This document shows, in pieces, positions 15,882 through 27,590 of a stretch of 64,000 bases of DNA. A program made the position numbers and the translations under genes. Position 1 is the stretch's first letter. The number at the start of each line of letters is the position of its first letter. The notes below the pieces were generated by a model that was given only the letters and a program-made list of their open reading frames with translations, did no database searches and was not told where the DNA came from. Source of the DNA: Chryseobacterium capnotolerans (lineage in GTDB: Bacteria > Bacteroidota > Bacteroidia > Flavobacteriales > Weeksellaceae); NCBI RefSeq assembly GCF_021278965.1, contig NZ_CP065589.1:3787001-3851000 (forward strand). The letters are read 5' to 3'.

Positions 15882-17730
15882 ATGAAAAAGCCGTTCACTT
15901 TTTTTTTATTTTTTATTCTTGATCTGCGTTCTCTGCCCTGCTCAAAATACATTTATTGAAGGTCTTCAAAATCAATTGAAAGACAATACGGCTGTTGAGG
16001 AAAAATTTAAAATCTATAATGAACTTACAGAATATTATAGAGTCAGTGACCAATATCCTGCTGCTGAAAAATATGTCCAGGAACAATTAAAATTGGCTAG
16101 AAATGAACATAATTATACAGAAGAGGTAAAAGCTTTAGTTCAAGATGGAATTATTAAACTTAATCAGTCACAATACGACAAAGTTCCTCAGCTAATTGAT
16201 GAAGCGAATGCATCTGCACAAAAAACAAATGATAAAACGGCTTCACTATATGCAGCGTATTTAAATATCTACTATAATAATATCCTGGGTGAGTCTGAAA
16301 ATACGATGAAACTGATTCAGAAAACTCTTCCTGAAGTTGAAAAGCTCTCCTCAGAAGTTCTTCTGAATGCTAAACTCAATTACCTTCTATACGGAATCCA
16401 TTCTGAATGGAATGATGCTAAGAATGCCACAATCTATGCTCAAAAGGCTGTAGAATTGGCTCAAAAATCAGGGAATAAAAATATGCTGAGCTCAGCGTAT
16501 TCCGCTATGGCTGTCTGTTATTATTTTCCCTATGAAAAAACAGGAGACTTAAAGGATCTGAAGCTTGTTACAGCAATGTGTAAAAAAGCAGTTGCTCTTT
16601 ATCATCAGTTTCCGGGACAGGTTTCTGCCCACGCTCATGCTATGGCGTTATTAAACCTTGCCAACTACAACCTGAGTTCCCCTGTAATTACCCCGGAAAT
16701 TCGCAAGGAAATCCAGGAAAATACTGCTGAAATCCTCTCCCTTACGCAGCATACCACATTAAACCAGGGTATTCAGGCAGGGGCCTTAGGAATCCTTAGT
16801 AATCTTGCTGCACGTGACGGAAATGATACCTTATCAGAACAATATCTTTTAAAAGCTGAGCAGATTTTACTTACTCAGCAGCCTGTCTATTACCATGTCA
16901 TGATCAATGTAGTCAGCGATTTGGCTAAACTGTATGAAAAACGGAAAAACTATCAAAAGGCATATGAATATCAAGCTAAGGTAACGGAATACAACAGTCT
17001 TCTTTATAATGAAGGACAGGCAGAAACGGCCAAAAGACTTGAAGCCCAGTTCCAGTCTCAAAAAAAAGAATCTGAACTGAAAACCCTCACAGAAAAAACG
17101 GCAAGTCTGAAGAAAGAAAAGTTTCTCTATATTGGATTGGGAATCATTGGGGTGATTGGTGCATTTTTCATGTTCCGTTCTTATCATTATAAATTACGCT
17201 ACTCTATAGCACAAGAGAAAAAATTAAATACTGAAAAACATGAAGCTGAAATGCTCGTAAAACTTCAGGAAGAAGAACAAGCCCGATTAAAAGCAGAACA
17301 GAAACTTCTTACCTTACAACAGCAGAAACTCCAAAGTGAAGTTCTTGCCAGCCAGCTCCATATTGAGCATAAAAATGAAGTCCTTTACCAACTTCAGACC
17401 CAACTTTCTGATACGGATATTAATATCAACCAGGTAGTCAAAGAGCAAAACCGCGTGGATAATGATTTTGAAAAGATCCGATTTACCATTCAGGAACTTC
17501 ATCCTGACTTTTTTAAAAACATTAATGAAAAAGCCAAACAGAAACTTACCCCGCTGGACTTAAAATACTGTGCTTACATCTATCTCGGAATGGACACGAA
17601 ACAAATAGCCAATCTCCTGAATGTGGAACCTAAAAGTGTAAGAATGACCAAATATCGTCTGAAAAAGAAATTCGGATTGGATGAGAGTATGGCTTTGGAT
17701 ACTTTCTTTCAAGGAGTATTTTCTGTATAA
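15882..17730 (+). CDS. Membrane TPR regulator with C-terminal LuxR-type HTH (frameshift in signal peptide)
   Basis: About 615 residues. TPR-like helical repeats fill the first 390 residues. A transmembrane helix (FLYIGLGIIGVIGAFFMF) follows, then a coiled coil (EEEQARLKAEQKLLTLQQ) and a C-terminal HTH (KYCAYIYLGMDTKQIANLLN then VEPKSVRMTKYRLKKK). This is a common Bacteroidota architecture: a periplasmic TPR sensor with a cytoplasmic DNA-binding end. The long frame opens only with TTG at 15919. The ATG at 15882 encodes a perfect signal-peptide start (MKKPFTFF) in another frame, and deleting one T of the T9 run at 15899-15907 joins them. It lies just upstream of the RiPP locus and could regulate it. 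Confidence 0.82.
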
Positions 17731-18304: not shown

Positions 18305-18505
18305 ATGAAAAAATTAGTTGGAATGAAGAGAGACTTCTCTTCTCTAGAAAACAAAAAGATCAACAGAGAGGATATGAAAGCTGTTCAAGGAGCTCTTTGT
18401 TATGAAACATCAGAAAATGCAACATGCTATGATAAAAAGACTTACACTGATGCTGGTAAGCTTATCAATAAAATGTTTGTAGGTGAGAATTGCAGCGGAT
18501 TGTAA
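18305..18505 (+). CDS. gwsA: Grasp-with-spasm type RiPP precursor peptide
   Basis: 66 residues. The charged N-terminus (MKKLVGMKRDFSSLENKKIN, then REDMKAVQGA) has the form of a RiPP leader, with a helical 'FSSLENKKIN-x-x-x-M-x-x-V-x-G' pattern seen in Bacteroidota peptides. The presumed core after G29-A30 has three cysteines (C32, C41, C63) and many Thr, Ser, Lys, Glu and Asp residues, suitable for the ester or amide crosslinks that ATP-grasp ligases make. Its place ahead of an ATP-grasp and a SPASM gene supports the role. A hairpin terminator follows immediately. The modification, the cleavage point and the biological activity are unknown. Confidence 0.82.
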   Translation: MKKLVGMKRDFSSLENKKINREDMKAVQGALCYETSENATCYDKKTYTDAGKLINKMFVGENCSGL

Positions 18506-18517
18506 TATCATAGAATT

Positions 18518-18545
18518 ATAGAGGGTTTATCCCTCTATTTTTTCC
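18518..18545 (+). terminator. Terminator/attenuator between precursor and maturase genes
   Basis: An 8-bp stem (ATAGAGGG 18518-18525 with CCCTCTAT 18531-18538) and a TTTAT loop, followed by TTTTT. It lies 12 bp after the precursor stop. Partial termination here would give more precursor transcript than maturase transcript. Confidence 0.75.
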
Positions 18546-18591
18546 ATATTATGGTTTATAAAAGATGCTCTATTACAAATATTAGCCATGT

Positions 18592-18603
18592 TTTAGTACT
18601 AAA
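18592..18603. promoter_or_regulatory. 12-bp perfect palindrome upstream of the lipoprotein gene
   Basis: TTTAGTACTAAA is a perfect palindrome ending 17 bp before the ATG at 18621. It may be a regulator site for the second part of the operon; in AT-rich DNA chance occurrence is possible. Confidence 0.35.
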
Positions 18604-18620
18604 CTAATAAAAAACTTTCC

Positions 18621-19526
18621 ATGAAAAATGATGTATACAAATTATTGCAATTTCTACTATTAACCCTCATCTTTCTTTTATTTTCGTGTAAAAACAGAGA
18701 ACTTAATTATATTGATTATTATAATAAAGTATATACCATTGACAGTATTCATAGGATTCATAAAGATACTCTGGCTACTATTAAACAATATAAAGAGCTC
18801 TTTAGAAAATATCCTCCTGTGCAGAATGAGAGACTCGTAGAATATGAGACTTATATTAAAATGGCTGATAAATACCATCAAGATTTTGGAGGAATAAAAA
18901 GTCTTGATAAACTTATTGCACAAACCGGGCCTTACTGGAGACCTGAATCTGATTTTTTCCAGTTATATAAAAAATATGGAATAGATAGTTTACAAGTGGA
19001 ACAAAAGTTTCAACAATGGAAAAGAAGCCTTAACCCGGTTTTAGTGGACTCATTCAGCATTGCTTTTACAAGAGATCAGTACAATAGGAATATTAAAGAA
19101 ACTGTTGAAATGAACGATAAAAAAAATGCAGAGCTTTTAATATGGACTTTAAAGAATTATGGGTATCCATCTTTGCAAAAAAAAGGACATCTGGGAAGAG
19201 AGGGTCAATTAATGTCTATGGGAACCCTGCTTAACCATATGGCTTATACAAAATACTACGATTATTTTAAAAGAGAGTTATTACAATATGTAAAATCCGG
19301 AGAATGTACTCCCAGGGATTATACTGAAATGGTAGATAAATATCAATATGTGAATAATGGCATAACAATATACGGAATATTCATGCGCTATAGTGAGGCA
19401 AACCTAAATGCCGCCGATTCTGCAAGAATTGATAAAAACCGTGCTGCTATAGGCTTTCCCAGAATGAAAACCTCTATGAAGATTGCCAAAGATTTTTTTG
19501 ATAAGCTTAAAAAACAAAAAAAATGA
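18621..19526 (+). CDS. Lipoprotein, DUF6624-like, in the RiPP operon
   Basis: 301 residues. The N-terminus is a lipoprotein signal (FLLLTLIFLLFSC, Cys23), so the protein should be anchored in a membrane facing the periplasm or surface. The C-terminal half resembles DUF6624: HMAYTKYYDYFKREL, then GECTPRDYTEMVDKYQY, then GITIYGIF, ending DKNRAAIGFPRM. These correspond to the family's 'H-A-D', 'D-R', 'YG-T' and 'R-x-x-I-G-L' landmarks. The stop overlaps the ATP-grasp start (ATGA at 19523-19526), so it is translated with the maturases. It could aid export, processing or immunity; none is shown. Confidence 0.75.
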   Translation: MKNDVYKLLQFLLLTLIFLLFSCKNRELNYIDYYNKVYTIDSIHRIHKDTLATIKQYKELFRKYPPVQNERLVEYETYIKMADKYHQDFGGIKSLDKLIAQTGPYWRPESDFFQLYKKYGIDSLQVEQKFQQWKRSLNPVLVDSFSIAFTRDQYNRNIKETVEMNDKKNAELLIWTLKNYGYPSLQKKGHLGREGQLMSMGTLLNHMAYTKYYDYFKRELLQYVKSGECTPRDYTEMVDKYQYVNNGITIYGIFMRYSEANLNAADSARIDKNRAAIGFPRMKTSMKIAKDFFDKLKKQKK

Positions 19527-20425
19527 TTCTCATTATTTCTGAAAATAGGGAAAATACAACCAATGAAGTCATCAAATATCTTCTGGCCATGAACAAAAGG
19601 TTCATCCGTGTACATGAAGATGAAATTTTTGAAATTAAAACCCACCAAAAGAGACTTCTTATGCTAAGCCAAAGAAATAGATTCTATCTTGATGAAATAA
19701 GCAGTGTATGGTACAGAACCGGAGGATTAAATTTCAAACGGCTACGGTATGAAAATGAATCTATTAATCTTAACATGAATGAATACCAACACTGGCTGGA
19801 AGATTATGTGAGAAAAACTTTAGAATCGAAAAAGCATATCAATAAAGAAAGCAATAGTGATGTAAACAAGCTTCTGGTATTGGAACAGGCCAAAAAAGCA
19901 GGTTTAGATGTACCGGATTATTTTCTGTCCGAAAATACAGATGAAGTAGAACTTCATAAAACCATCATCAAAACCATTGGCGGAAATCCGAGAGCAGAAA
20001 ATATTATCCCGAATGCCACCGGTATGATGTATACTTCAATCGTGAAAGAATCACAAAAAGGAAGTTTCTTCATCACATTTTTCCAGGAAAAAATTGAAAA
20101 AGATTTTGAGATTAGGAGCTTTTATCTGAATGGAAAAGTTTGGTCAACAGCGATCTTTTCACAAAATAATGAGCAGACAAAAATTGATTTCAGAAAGTAC
20201 AACCATAAAAAGCCCAACAGAAATGTTCCTTACCAGCTTCCCAAGAGTATTGAAAAGAAAATTCATTTACTGATGTTATCTCTGGACCTCAACTCCGGTT
20301 CATTGGATCTTATCAAGAGCAAGGATACATTTTATTTTTTAGAAGTAAATGCCATAGGCCAGTTTCTTGGGCATTCAGTGATCTGTAACTATTCGTTGGA
20401 AAAAGAAATAGCTGATTTTTTATGA
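19523..20425 (+). CDS. gwsG: Grasp-with-spasm system ATP-grasp peptide maturase
   Basis: 300 residues of the RimK/microviridin-ligase-like ATP-grasp class. The N-terminal domain has SVWYRTGGLNF near residue 55. The nucleotide-binding middle has KTIGGNPRAENI and a lysine-rich MMYTSIVKESQKGSFFITFF region. The catalytic end has DFEIRSFYLNGKVWSTAIFS and the metal-binding E274-x-N276 in FLEVNAIGQF. Such enzymes activate Asp or Glu side chains with ATP and join them to Ser, Thr or Lys, making graspetide-type rings. It overlaps both neighbours by 4 bp. The pairing with a downstream SPASM protein identifies the system. Confidence 0.9.
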   Translation: MILIISENRENTTNEVIKYLLAMNKRFIRVHEDEIFEIKTHQKRLLMLSQRNRFYLDEISSVWYRTGGLNFKRLRYENESINLNMNEYQHWLEDYVRKTLESKKHINKESNSDVNKLLVLEQAKKAGLDVPDYFLSENTDEVELHKTIIKTIGGNPRAENIIPNATGMMYTSIVKESQKGSFFITFFQEKIEKDFEIRSFYLNGKVWSTAIFSQNNEQTKIDFRKYNHKKPNRNVPYQLPKSIEKKIHLLMLSLDLNSGSLDLIKSKDTFYFLEVNAIGQFLGHSVICNYSLEKEIADFL

Positions 20426-20604
20426 AAAAAAAATTTATCCCAAAAGAGAAACATCCACTTCCTCTGATCTATAACTTCATGGAAATTGTAATAAACCAAG
20501 AAAGAGAGCAATCTGCGATAAATATCACTGTAACAAGTGAAAAATACCAAACCAATTTCTATGTAAAATCAAAACCTTATAAATTCTTAGTGAGGTTCTT
20601 ATGA
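20422..20604 (+). CDS. 60-residue protein coupled between the two maturases
   Basis: A small basic protein I do not recognise. It begins MKKKFIPKEKHPLPLIYNF and ends YVKSKPYKFLVRFL, with no signal peptide, membrane helix or cysteine. Its ATG overlaps the ATP-grasp stop (ATGA, 20422-20425) and its stop overlaps the SPASM start (ATGA, 20601-20604), the same arrangement as between the other genes, so it is very probably translated. The start codon is followed by an A9 run, so a length error there is possible. It may be an accessory or leader-binding protein; this is inference from position only. Confidence 0.68.
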   Translation: MKKKFIPKEKHPLPLIYNFMEIVINQEREQSAINITVTSEKYQTNFYVKSKPYKFLVRFL

Positions 20605-21680
20605 AATATTTCAATTTATTCAGTACGATTTTCATTACCAAAGGAGCTAACAGAATTTTAGTTTCAGATCTTCAGAGAAATACATCTGAACTCTATCCAT
20701 TAGAATTATATGATCTGCTTGAAGAATTAAAGAAAAATTCCATTGAAGAGATCCTGGAAATGTATGATCAGAACTCTAAGGATATTGTTCAGGAATATTT
20801 AGAAATTCTGTCAGAAAGAGAATATGGCTTTATTACAGAAAATGACCATGATCGAAATTTTCCGCCATTATCATATGAATATAGGGAGGCAAACAAGATT
20901 AATGACCTCTTTATCGAAATTGCAGATATCAGCCTTTTAAAGAGGCTTAGAAGCTCTGTAGAGCAACTTGAGATTAGACATATGGTTATCTACAGTGCAA
21001 AACCCTTATCGGTAGAAGAATTTATCAATATAGACCATACTTTCACATTATCTGTGCTGGCAGGGATAGAAATAATTTCTCCTTTTCATCAGGAAATAGA
21101 TCAAATCTTTCTACAGGAAATACATAATGAAACTGAAAGAATTTACAACCTCCTATTTTATCACTGCCCTCAAAAACGTTCCAGGGTAAAAAATGAATTC
21201 AGGTTTAGCGTGAATTTTGTAAAAGAACATATAAAAATATCATCCTGCGGAAAAGTAGATTTGAAATATTTCAATACCAATCTCCCCAAAGTGTTGGAAG
21301 CTGTCAACCATAACTCTTGTCTGCATAAAAAGATAGGCATAGATAAAGATGGCCATATTAAAAATTGTCCTTTAATGCAGGAGAGCTTTGGAAATATTCA
21401 GAACACAAGCCTGGAGGAAGCTTTAGCACAACCCGGATTCAGGAAATACTGGAATATTACTAAAGATAGCATTGAAGGGTGCAAAGACTGCGAATTCAGG
21501 CATATCTGTACAGACTGCAGGGCTTATACCGAACGATCGCATTATAGTGCGGAAAACCTGGATCTATCAAAGCCCTTAAAGTGTGGTTACAACCCTTATA
21601 CCAATGAATGGAAAGAATGGAGTAAAAATCCCCTTAAACAGAAAGTCATTCATTATTATGAGATACAAAAAACAAAATAG
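20601..21680 (+). CDS. gwsS: Grasp-with-spasm system SPASM-domain peptide maturase
   Basis: 359 residues. The C-terminal part (about 215-330) is a SPASM domain with cysteines at 216, 240, 256, 294, 297, 303, 306 and 328, including GCKDCEFRHICTDCRAY, KDGHIKNC and SFGNI. The region before it has remnants of a radical-SAM barrel but no CxxxCxxC iron-sulfur motif at the N-terminus, as expected for this family, so it may not be a classical radical-SAM enzyme. It presumably recognises or modifies the precursor together with the ATP-grasp protein. It is the last gene of the operon, and the terminator overlaps its stop. Confidence 0.9.
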   Translation: MKYFNLFSTIFITKGANRILVSDLQRNTSELYPLELYDLLEELKKNSIEEILEMYDQNSKDIVQEYLEILSEREYGFITENDHDRNFPPLSYEYREANKINDLFIEIADISLLKRLRSSVEQLEIRHMVIYSAKPLSVEEFINIDHTFTLSVLAGIEIISPFHQEIDQIFLQEIHNETERIYNLLFYHCPQKRSRVKNEFRFSVNFVKEHIKISSCGKVDLKYFNTNLPKVLEAVNHNSCLHKKIGIDKDGHIKNCPLMQESFGNIQNTSLEEALAQPGFRKYWNITKDSIEGCKDCEFRHICTDCRAYTERSHYSAENLDLSKPLKCGYNPYTNEWKEWSKNPLKQKVIHYYEIQKTK

Positions 21681-22788: not shown

Positions 22789-25700
22789 TTATTTAGCATT
22801 CGATTTTGTAGAATCTGTTTTTATTTCCGTTTTCTCTGCAGATGCTTTTTTATCTTTTTTCTTCTTTTTAAACAAAGAATTAAAGCTTTTACTCCATAAG
22901 ACCCCTACTCCATAGGCTTGATTAGCAGTTCCGTTTGTACTGATCATCCCAATATTGGTGGGCTTAGAGTATCCTCTTACCACCAAAGTACCGTCATTCT
23001 TTTTAGATAAATCATATTCTATAGAGCCTTCTCCCGAAAGATAATTGTTCTGAGCTCCGGTAGTACTTGCTTCCGTTTTGGATAATGGAATACCCAATCC
23101 GGTCTTGATATTTATCCTTGGTGAAAGGGCTACACTCACTCCAGCATTCGCTCTGTCTGCTGTATTTGAATTTTGGTCACCCTTTACATAGTTCAGGTCA
23201 ATCTGGAATTCATTACTCATAGTATTAAGAACTGATCCCAGCTGTTTCAGAAGTATATTATATCCTTGTGATTCTGCAACGTTACCCATATTCACTTCTA
23301 CTCCTCCGCTATTGGATACGTTAAAGGTACTCAACAAAAGAACGGAACCAAACTGAAGAACTTTTTCTCCTTCCTGGCTCATTTTAGCAGCCAATGTTTC
23401 TCTCACCTGGCTTGAAACATCCATTGCCGTGACATTCAGCTCCACCTTAGGATCTATAAGAGACTCTGTAATATTAGCCTGCAATAAAATACTTATCGGC
23501 TGCAGTTTCCCCATACTCAGATATTCCCCTGCATTGGAAACCATTCTTACATAGTTGGCAGTAATATCCAGCGCCGGTTTCATCGCATCACCATCCCATC
23601 TTATGCTGCTGTTTTTCTGGATTTGAAAGGTTTTATTAAGAATTGCTTTGGAAACAAATGTTCCGTTATCTACTTTATACGTGCCGTTCATCGCAATATT
23701 TCCCTGTCTATTCATCTGGAACCTCAGCGGATCTGCCGTCCCTTTTACGGTAATACTTCCCACATCATCTCCGATAAGTACATTTACTGTAGTTCCTTTA
23801 TCTACAGCTAAATTGAAATCAATATACATATTGGCTCCGGTCTTTTTCTTCTCTTCTAATGTTACCAATCCATCTTTTCCTTCTTTCAGGAATCTAAGCA
23901 TCTTGAATTCTTCAACATTTGAAGTGGAACTTGAGTTGAAAGTAAAAGTACTTCCGTTAAGTGCCCTCATATTAGGAGTAGTTATACTTAAACCAGACAC
24001 AGGGCCGGAAACGTACAAATCACCTTGCCCATATACTCTTCCCCAAAACAAATCAGAATCTTTTTGAGTAGAATTCAGGACCAAAAGATTATCAGCTCTC
24101 ATGATCAGATCGATACCCATTGAAGAAAGTGTTTCAAACCGGATCGCACCGGAAATATTCCCTTTAGAGTTGGTTCTTCCATCATGTACTTCAATATTGT
24201 TGAGAATGGCCAGCCCTTTACTTAATTGGATCACGTTATCATCAAATGAATAGTCTACCCCTGTAAACAGAAGTTTTAATCCGAAATCTTTTAAGGCAAT
24301 GTCACCACTGTAATCAAGATTATTAAGCTTTCCATTAATCTTAAGATCTCCTGTTGCTTTTCCTCTAAGGTTTCCAAAAATAGATTGAACAAACTGTTGG
24401 GTGAAAGAAAGATCGAAGTCACGCATTTCTGCCGTAAGATCAATATCCGGAGAAGCGCTATTGTTATTTACAGTCCCCGTAAGATTTAAACTGTTGTTTC
24501 CTAGAACTCCTGCAGAATGAACCTTTACATCAATATCATATACGTTCAATGAGAACCCATTGGTAGCCGAAATGGAAATGGCTCCCATATCATTACCATT
24601 CATTTTAATATCATCTACATTAAGGTCTACCAGAGGCTGTAAAGTGCTTTTATCCATCTTGATCTTTACACTTCCGTTTGCCAGACCTTGAATATCCATG
24701 CTATTACCTCCAGACTGCATATCCAAAAGTTTCTCTATTGCAAAATCACTGATATCGGCATCTAAATAGAAATCCTTGATTGATTTAAATTGTGCTTCTT
24801 TGATAAACAAAGCACTCTTATCAGAATACACCCTCAGATTCCTGATATCGAAATCTCCGGTATTCTTCCTGTAAGTAATGGAATGATTAAGCTCAGGGCT
24901 GGTATCAATAGCCCAGGATACTTCATTAAATTTAACTTCCGTAGGCTCGAATCTGAAAACATAATCACCGGCTGCATCCGTAGATTGGTCTACATTAATA
25001 GCATATTCCTTCAGCTTTTCATTGATCTCATCATCCGGGCTTCCGTGCTTGAATACAGTAGACAGATGCAGGGTATTTCCGTTTTCGTTATTCCCTTTAA
25101 GTTCAAAATCTTTAATGATATTTTTATTGTACTCTAGTCTATTGATTCTTGCATATAGCTGCTGAGCAAGATTCGCAGTATTGATCCTTACCTTAACACT
25201 GTCTACCATGGCACTATCCTTACTCAGGTTTTTTCTAGTATTCATCTGGTAATCAGAATTGGAACTTGCCAATGCTTCATCTGCATTATTAATTTCCTCT
25301 TCTTTAGTCATAATATATTTCAGTGCCGTGGCATCAAGATTCAGGATCAGGTTATTTGAATCTCCATCATATTCACCTTCCACCATAGCTCCGTTAGGTA
25401 ACTTCAGATCTGGTAAGAAATAGTTAACCAGTCCCTGTTGAACATCAAATTTCATGGCAAAATTCTGGCCTCGGTATAATTTTCTTGGCGGCGGTCCTAC
25501 AAGAATTCGTCCTACTCCGTTTTCTACCATGCCTACAAGATCCGCAAGATTATATTTACCGGAAATTTTTCCGTTAGCTGCTCCCGGTGCATCCACATCA
25601 ATAACACGTCCTCCGGCTTCAATAAAGGTTTTTAATTTCGCTGCAGGGATAGAGTATTTCTGTGTAGCGGTTGCAAAATGAATATTATTGGCATTTACGT

Positions 25701-27590
25701 CCAATGTAAGGTCATTAATGGATGACATAGACATTTTACCTTCTACCTGGCCGCTTACCATCTGGCTGCCGGGCTTATTGGTAAAATAATTCATATTCAG
25801 CTGGGTAACATCAGCATTCACATCCATTGCAATTTTCGAGGTACTGAAATCTATTAACCCTTTAATGGTGGCTTTTGCCTGTTCATCATTAACCGTAATC
25901 AGCCCGTTATATTTTTTATGGTCTAATAATCCGTCCAAATAGAGATTATTAATGACCTTATCCATAATTTCAATGCTGGTAATCTGGGATTTGGTGGTAA
26001 GACGCATTGTATTCACATCAAAGCTCTGCCCATTGAGATCAAAATTACCTGAAATCAATCCTACCGACTTATTTTTAGTAATTACAGAAGTATTAATATC
26101 TTTTACCTCAAGACGCCCTGAATACTTAGGCATAGCCGTGCTGTATCCTGTTAAAGACAGTTTAGAAATTTTCGCCTGTCCTATTCCTGTCATTAAATTC
26201 CCACTTTCTACATATATTTGGTCCGGATTTACTTTAGCCATTCCATTATATTTCAGTTTTCCAAAGTCATCTGCAAAATTCTTCATTTTGCTGGAGATGA
26301 ATGTTGGCATCATTGCTTTCAGATCTTTATAGGTAAAATCGGTGGAAAGGTCTTTGGTTTCAATAGAAAAGTGTCCGTTCAGCAGGTTATCCACCTTCAT
26401 GGTTTTGGTGGCAATATTCACATCAGGGTTTCTGATCAGAAAATTCTCTAAATGGAATTTATTTAAAGGACCTGTCATTTGTCCTGAAAGATTAAACGGC
26501 TTGATATTATCCCAATTGGTTACAAAATAACTGATATCATATCCACTTACCTGGCTTCCCTGATTGATATTCATATCCCAGCGAACCTTGTCTGCAAAAT
26601 CAGCCCATGAACCATCATGAAGATTGAATTTTATATCTCCCTGAAGTAAGGTATGATCTGTATTTAAGGTAAGGTCTTTTAACGATAAAAACTGCTTGGT
26701 TAAAGACAGTTCTGTTGAAAAGGTATCTACAATATGAGACTTCCCCCATCTGGAGGTCACGAAAGACATATTATTAATAAGCGCCGTAATATTAGGGCCT
26801 ACGACCTTCACATTGGGCGCTTTTAAATTAAATTTTGTTGCGGTAAGCCACTTCCCGTGATCCCCTTCAGAGTTCTGATTAACAATAGATACTTTAGAAT
26901 CTATAATCTGTACTCTTGAATTCAGCTGAAAAGGAGGTTTCTTTGGATCTCTTTTCTTTCCATCATCAAATAACTCCGTAAATCTTACAAAATTGGAAAT
27001 ACTGTCGCCTTTATAAGTAATAACTTTTATTTCTGCATTAACAAGAGTAAGGGAATTAAAGCTTAAAGAATTGCTTTTGCCGGAAATAGCATTCGCTGCA
27101 AGAGAGAGCCAATCTGAATCAGCACGAAATTCACGAGCCTGAATAAAATCTAAGCCTTTATAGTCTTTTACTTTTAATCCTTTTATGGTAACATCTCCAA
27201 AATAGTTTACGTCTACGCTTTCCGTAGAAAACCCGGATTTAAAATCATTATTCACAAGCTTCAACGCCTGATCTGCAGCCCATTGTTTGGTTACCGGAAG
27301 GTTGATCGTGATAAGAACCCCTGCCACAAGAACAAGACCCAGCCAAAAAGAATAAGAAGAAGCTTTGCCCACCAGGTATAGCTGGTGACATCTTTCATAG
27401 CCTGTTTTCCAAACTCTTCAGCAGTCTCTACAGGGTGATTGATGGCGTCTGAAGCCAGTTCTGAGGCTTCTTTCACTGTTTCCCGTACCTTTCCCTCTAC
27501 ATTTTCAACAGTCTTCTGTACCTGATCCCCTAGGTTTTCAGCTACCGATTTTTTATTCTCATTCTCGTTATTATTCTCTAACTTTGCCAT
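22789..27590 (-). CDS. tamB: TamB-like translocation/assembly protein, frameshifted near the N-terminus
   Basis: About 1600 residues when joined. The N-terminus (MAKLENNNENENKKSVAENL at 27590) has an acidic coiled segment and ends WWAKLLLILF; the rest continues in another frame as WLGLVLVAGVLITINLPVTK. The two join if one T is added to the T5 run (plus-strand A5 at 27345-27349). Without the repair only a GTG start at 27372 opens the long frame. The body is the repetitive beta-helical AsmA/TamB fold, and the DUF490-type C-terminus has VNMGNVAESQGYNILLKQL and FQIDLNYVKG. TamB proteins span the periplasm and help outer-membrane protein or lipid transfer. The C-terminal tail is lysine-rich. Confidence 0.88.

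Follow-up and report, generated by a model that had tools for sequence, protein, structure and literature searches.

Comparative analysis of a grasp-with-spasm graspetide locus in Chryseobacterium capnotolerans suggests a mobile ligase cassette beside a chromosomally inherited SPASM protein

A grasp-with-spasm (gws) locus occupies positions 18305–21680 of a 64 000 nucleotide stretch of Chryseobacterium capnotolerans DNA (contig NZ_CP065589.1, positions 3,787,001 to 3,851,000; hereafter the window). Comparison with related loci leads us to propose that the SPASM protein GwsS apparently descends with the chromosome, while the peptide core, a lipoprotein, the ATP-grasp ligase GwsG and a small LPL-type protein tend to move together, forming a matched cassette that occupies a fixed site. 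The complete model, a graspetide operon with a stapled peptide, an LPL-assisted GwsG, a non-radical GwsS, an immunity lipoprotein and C39 export, is one that we consider reasonably probable. New here are the roles proposed for the proteins and the cassette arrangement; the locus itself is already known in kind.

Five genes lie on the forward strand: gwsA, encoding the 66 amino acid precursor (18305–18505); a lipoprotein gene (18621–19526, 301 amino acids); gwsG (19523–20425, 300 amino acids); lpl (20422–20604, 60 amino acids, HPLPLIYNFMEIV ... KPYKFLVRFL); and gwsS (20601–21680, 359 amino acids). An earlier sequence-only reading had proposed a grasp-with-spasm locus of these five genes with ATGA overlaps joining the last four, and the open reading frame (ORF) coordinates agree in every respect. 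Three of the proteins exceed NCBI cut-offs for the expected families: GwsA scored 47.5 bits against TIGR04139 (cut-off 40), GwsG 342.7 bits against TIGR04192 (cut-off 230) and GwsS 418.3 bits against TIGR04193 (cut-off 175). GwsA also scored 20.4 bits against PF14406, under the cut-off of 25, and as single sequences neither the lipoprotein nor the 60 amino acid protein reached any NCBIfam or Pfam cut-off. The five-gene order, including the 66 amino acid ORF, is repeated in many relatives. The named relatives of GwsS also point to a Chryseobacterium as host. Among graspetides already on record, the locus is a typical representative of branch 5 of PMC8939145, and apparently of group 14 of PMC13097080, to which it was matched by description.

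Both accessory families, left unassigned in the sequence-only reading, are already described in the available part of PMC8939145. There, branch 5 loci carry a SPASM protein (Table 1: TIGR04193) that is termed a radical SAM enzyme. Proteins of cluster 23, many of them bearing a lipoprotein site, are guessed to be enzymatic on the basis of conserved His and Arg, and the LPL small protein is said to be 'always' directly upstream of the SPASM gene, with a PqqD-like role guessed. The same source remarks that the LPL motif recalls a leader motif, and raises binding to the ATP-grasp enzyme as an alternative. In the available part of PMC13097080, group 14 has no characterised member, and DUF6624 proteins accompany other graspetide groups as possible biosynthetic enzymes. 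A literature search, mostly outside subscription journals, returned no title or abstract opening reporting a grasp-with-spasm product or a tested role for the accessory proteins, consistent with the earlier view that the product is uncharacterised.

Related loci were compared in two sets. Set 1 comprised 70 loci, of which 69 were hand-chosen regions (L122–L190) and one was the window slice; set 2 comprised 80 named loci (L192–L271), the best 80 of 542 matching stretches. The sets share genomes (150 partly overlapping loci), so counts are given per set, as paired figures such as 51/51 and 79/79, or for distinct sequences. The window's own proteins were the starting point of the profiles used to locate the genes, and fold assignments derive from sequence profiles alone. 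At three loci (L238, L239 and L264), two different gws systems adjoin, each with its own GwsG and GwsS.

Cassette exchange is seen most directly in the identities of the two enzymes. GwsS is at least 88% identical in 40 locus pairs, and in 10 of these GwsG falls below 75%; the opposite contrast, GwsG at 85% or more with GwsS below 78%, is seen in 30 pairs, the pairs in these counts not being independent. In the clearest exchange, between L196 and L261, identity is 94% for GwsS, 65% for GwsG, 42% for LPL and 22% for the core. Co-variation, measured as correlation between distances in related sequences, extends this pattern to a flanking gene (22789–27372 in the window, and its relatives), which follows GwsS (0.67, interval 0.57 to 0.76) and not GwsG (−0.08; n = 47). 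Because the flanking gene tracks GwsS rather than GwsG, and given the identity contrasts, GwsS is read as chromosome-bound and the cassette as mobile. GwsG and the core retain a correlation of 0.36 (0.21 to 0.49; n = 47) with the other genes and the flanking gene held constant.

Several observations weigh against so clean a division. The flanking gene also correlates with the core (0.22, 0.07 to 0.40) and with the leader (0.14), and the lipoprotein with GwsS (0.17, 0.09 to 0.25; all n = 47), so that the cassette is not cleanly separate. An initial LPL–core co-variation of 0.31 fell to 0.09 and 0.05 with the lipoprotein held constant (0.05 with the flanking gene held constant too), and was discarded. 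More generally, such correlations are not calibrated tests.

GwsG was assigned as an ATP-grasp graspetide ligase. Its relatives in the PDB include MdnC and CdnC, and the E-x-N metal motif noticed in the sequence-only reading (FLEVN, residues 274–276) aligns with its counterpart in both. The catalytic residues of the D-x-R and E-x-N graspetide synthetase motifs, Asp222/Arg224 and Glu274/Asn276, are present and nearly invariant among 125 distinct GwsG sequences (D222 125/125, R224 124/125, E274 124/125, N276 125/125).

The 60 amino acid protein was assigned to the LPL family by motif and position; the motif is present in an alignment of 100 distinct homologues. Its proposed PqqD-like role would make it a chaperone of GwsS, placing the precursor in that protein (PMC8939145, available part). 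Such a role would fit the position of lpl immediately 5' of gwsS, mostly with an ATGA overlap, in 42/51 and 70/79 cases. However, lpl stands apart from gwsS in the other 9/51 and 9/79, which contradicts the statement in that source that it is always directly upstream of the SPASM gene, and it is never apart from gwsG, lying directly 3' of it in 51/51 and 79/79. Furthermore, tandem cassettes (L131 = L219, L154 = L203, L156 = L226, and L148, in which the first gwsG copy is in two pieces) duplicate gwsG together with lpl beside a single gwsS. Distances point the same way: the partial correlation of LPL with GwsG is 0.53 vs 0.19 with GwsS (91 distinct triples; 95% interval of the difference 0.18 to 0.48). 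We therefore regard a chaperone of GwsS as unlikely, and LPL as likely to be a partner of GwsG, as judged from gene order and sequence distances. The LPL profile found nothing in 26 GwsG–GwsS pairs; the gap holds a small ORF in 25 of these, 12 of which have, by eye, [YVH]KPI close to the C-terminus, and the exception (L138) contains a gwsG fragment.

It is possible to speculate on how LPL might assist the ligase. The best-matching LPL site for the microviridin leader motif is the segment LPLTFKYIE, its score being reached by 49/5000 column shuffles for PFFARFLE and 95/5000 for PFFASFLE, which is suggestive only. In the same genome, the leader of the microviridin-type precursor contains PFFASFLE; that of GwsA lacks proline and any PFFARFLE-like motif. 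We hypothesize that LPL could act as a leader in trans.

The GwsA precursor consists of a leader of about residues 1–30, with QGA replacing GG, and a core of about residues 31–66. Among 106 distinct strong precursors (E < 1e-8), the conserved columns are Gly29 (104/106), Ser/Thr36 (94/106), Asp/Glu43 (105/106) and Tyr/Trp47 (91/106). The core had been described as Cys/Thr/Lys-rich and cross-linked by the ATP-grasp enzyme; such a composition proved not to be the conserved feature. Across 102 distinct cores, cut by a simple rule with a few mis-cut, 25 have no Cys, 27 have one, 39 have two and 11 have three, and the idea of paired Cys failed (64 even vs 38 odd). On these counts core Cys is optional and dispensable, and conservation instead predicts Ser36 and Asp43 as the likely cross-link partners.

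Downstream of gwsA, between the precursor and enzyme genes, a terminator-like hairpin with a T run (18518–18538, forward strand) resembles an attenuator. Its region holds four terminator-like sites, where 1.9 would be expected (sd 1.4). Hairpins of this kind lie 3' of gwsA in 59/108 cases, vs 2.6 expected from base shuffles, and 3' of gwsS in 27/125.

The absence of CxxxCxxC from GwsS, reported from the single sequence, was confirmed and extends to its relatives. The motif is missing from all 71 full-length GwsS proteins of set 1 and from the N-terminal part of all 125 distinct GwsS proteins, the one match, at residue 293, falling inside the SPASM region. As a control, it is present in 22/22 other SPASM ORFs recovered from 40 loci (the unrecovered ORFs were mostly from minus-strand loci, and at least two genes were counted twice). 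No Radical_SAM Pfam match was found in 30 members at E 0.1, a PDB profile search gave nothing convincing, and an attempt to align residues of about 115–190 with a radical SAM barrel was not significant. Because CxxxCxxC is missing from the N-terminal parts, unlike in the control ORFs, GwsS is by its motifs a SPASM protein and not a radical SAM enzyme. The motif counts thus speak against the assumption in the available part of PMC8939145 that it is a catalytic radical SAM/SPASM maturase, which would place thioether or C–C links on core Cys. The clear SPASM domain, the annotation of relatives as 'SPASM domain peptide maturase' and the presence of Cys41 in 60/106 precursors would suit such an enzyme; set against the motif and profile results and the Cys-free cores, they leave it highly improbable.

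Eight GwsS cysteines are conserved (216, 240, 256, 294, 297, 303, 306 and 328), with all eight present in 63/71 proteins. The other 8/71 form a divergent subgroup (L179, L165, L190, L189, L187, L186, L182 and L188) without the first three SPASM Cys and Cys306, one member of which lacks all eight; these proteins may bind one iron–sulphur (Fe–S) cluster or fewer. At the N-terminus, residues 18–76 aligned with PqqD-like RRE domains with an hhalign score of 19.8 and a probability of only 10%. With GwsS residues 1–95 compared, none of 100 column shuffles reached this score (best 19.3), which is suggestive, and we hypothesize that GwsS may recognize the precursor leader. An apparent leader–GwsS co-evolution of 0.29 was rejected, as it fell to 0.08 (−0.04 to 0.20) with the flanking gene controlled.

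The lipoprotein has a Ser-Cys lipobox at Cys23, with S22 and C23 nearly invariant in the family. Its family profile matched DUF6624 with an hhalign probability of 99.1 and a score of 130, vs a maximum of 17.1 in 40 column shuffles; against Pfam PF20329 (DUF6624) the window lipoprotein was unmatched alone and 1/65 members matched at E 0.009, and a PDB profile search gave nothing convincing. By profile–profile comparison, it appears to be a divergent member of DUF6624. Its distances follow those of the core (0.47; 0.41, 0.32 to 0.51, with the flanking gene also controlled), and also those of GwsG (0.33) and LPL (0.30); the leader value is −0.01 (n = 47 for all values but the first).

Extra copies occur. 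Lipoproteins outnumber full-length ligases in 19 loci, 14 of which have a full-length ligase (about 10 distinct genomes). Among 23 lipoproteins not directly 5' of gwsG, those of three independent genomes match another core type at 75–82%: the second lipoprotein of L261 shares 82% identity with the one in a cassette of another core type and 49% with its own, the extra lipoprotein of L155/L204 is 78% identical to another type vs 52% to its own, and that of L233 is 75% identical to another type. Solitary lipoproteins stand more than 600 kb from every GwsS match in three genomes (G007, G053 and G085). Core co-variation combined with extra and unlinked copies is a pattern typical of immunity genes, and we propose that the lipoprotein probably shields the producing cell from the peptide that it exports. 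A second copy of this lipoprotein was not found in the window's genome. Two further DUF6624 proteins are encoded there, away from the gws locus (G000 C1:343580 and 2636906).

This reading is not without difficulties. Most of the extra lipoproteins do not closely match those of any other cassette; some are duplicates or resemble lipoproteins of similar cores. In addition, 23/80 named loci, including Pedobacter and Sphingobacterium, lack a lipoprotein of this family, so immunity there would need another protein. The main alternative is an envelope maturation or processing enzyme, as the available part of PMC8939145 proposes for its lipoprotein family from the conserved His and Arg, and as that of PMC13097080 suggests for DUF6624 in other groups. 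Polar residues are indeed conserved in the family, and co-variation with the core would be expected equally of a core-acting enzyme. The surplus over full-length ligases and the unlinked solitary copies are harder to reconcile with an enzyme, which we judge doubtful while giving it serious weight. A second alternative makes immunity unneeded: the product would be a signal or metal-binding peptide and not an antagonist. We found no reported activity for the group, in keeping with this suggestion. Cassette replacement with foreign lipoproteins retained, however, resembles bacteriocin systems and argues against it, and a non-antagonist product seems to us rather improbable.

The sequence-only reading saw no transporter or protease nearby and left export to something else. 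No C39 peptidase was found inside the window, which was not scanned whole for other transporters or proteases. The first part of the claim stands to the extent that the sole Peptidase_C39 match in the genome lies 325 kb downstream, outside the window. This match, at L332:7766–9958, is a complete C39-ABC transporter with an HlyD-like gene after it. It nevertheless proved to be a close relative of gws-adjoining transporters: it is 92.6–98.8% identical to those of L214, L157, L224, L153, L229, L128, L240, L255, L129 and L203 (some of these ten being one genome counted twice), and 82–83% identical to those right after gwsS in L238, L239, L242, L244, L245 and L246, from Pedobacter and a relative. 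As the genome's one C39 transporter resembles the gws-adjoining transporters of relatives, leader removal and export in trans would be the simplest account. Against this, the two bacteriocin-like peptides encoded beside the transporter could be its only substrates. The region (L332:7519–10224; G000 C1, about 4.133 Mb) places it between two GG-leader peptides of 54 and 64 amino acids (NF047798), with a VKOR/DsbB-like gene and an AraC-type TPR regulator nearby.

Upstream of gwsA, the forward-strand gene at 15919–17730 encodes a TPR protein with a C-terminal LuxR-type (GerE-like) helix-turn-helix, matching Pfam TPR_12 and GerE, both under gathering scores. A same-strand ORF of ~620 amino acids, similar by size and position, stands at the equivalent site in many relatives, and by this linkage the gene is a possible regulator.

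Taken together, we propose that GwsG would activate a core carboxylate, most likely that of Asp43, and join it to a nearby hydroxyl, most likely of Ser36, as an omega-ester, with LPL assisting as its partner. GwsS, common to all cassettes, may be a non-radical Fe–S (SPASM) partner, perhaps presenting the precursor, and the hairpin 3' of gwsA may set precursor transcription above that of the enzymes. The leader would then be cut at the GG-like site and the peptide exported through the C39-peptidase ABC transporter encoded 325 kb away. The DUF6624 lipoprotein in the cell envelope would probably guard the producer. Core, lipoprotein, GwsG and LPL would tend to pass between species as one matched unit, with GwsS staying with the chromosome. 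A bolder version, to which we attach little probability, is a split-leader pathway: a ligase-activating PFFARFLE-like helix would have left the precursor to become the separate LPL, docking on GwsG in trans, and the leader would be read by a pseudo-radical-SAM GwsS in which the SPASM clusters survive but the catalytic one is gone. Matched cassettes of core, immunity lipoprotein, ligase and LPL would be swapped between species around this constant GwsS.

The group concerned is large, with GwsS relatives encoded in 542 stretches of one genome collection and GwsS above the cut-off in 87/118 Chryseobacterium genomes (10/296 genomes sampled across the phylum), and its annotations have so far been vague. 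The locus comparison gives its proteins roles that can be tested: LPL as an associate of the ligase, GwsS as an Fe–S partner of non-radical type, the lipoprotein in immunity and a transporter acting in trans.

Compared with known systems, the locus shares with branch 5, as described in the available part of PMC8939145, its ligase, SPASM protein, precursor family, cluster-23-like lipoprotein and LPL in one operon. Nothing essential differs, the unlinked transporter of the window's genome aside. Group 14, in the available part of PMC13097080, likewise always combines an ATP-grasp ligase with a SPASM protein, and many of its loci include an NHLM-type transporter. The chryseoviridin and microviridin ligases CdnC and MdnC are ATP-grasp relatives of GwsG that share D-x-R and E-x-N. 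Their precursors carry PFFA(R/S)FLE in the leader, whereas in gws a similar motif sits in the separate LPL. A microviridin/chryseoviridin-type locus is present in the same genome (L002:1190–3450; G000 C1, about 1.041 Mb), its second ligase being in two ORFs of 94 and 269 amino acids in different frames. Finally, the rosaritide ligase of MirB/MirC requires a partner with a weakly RRE-like N-domain (PMC13097080, available part), and GwsS is similarly weakly RRE-like; MirC is described as SurA-like, whereas GwsS has a SPASM domain, and GwsG may depend on GwsS.

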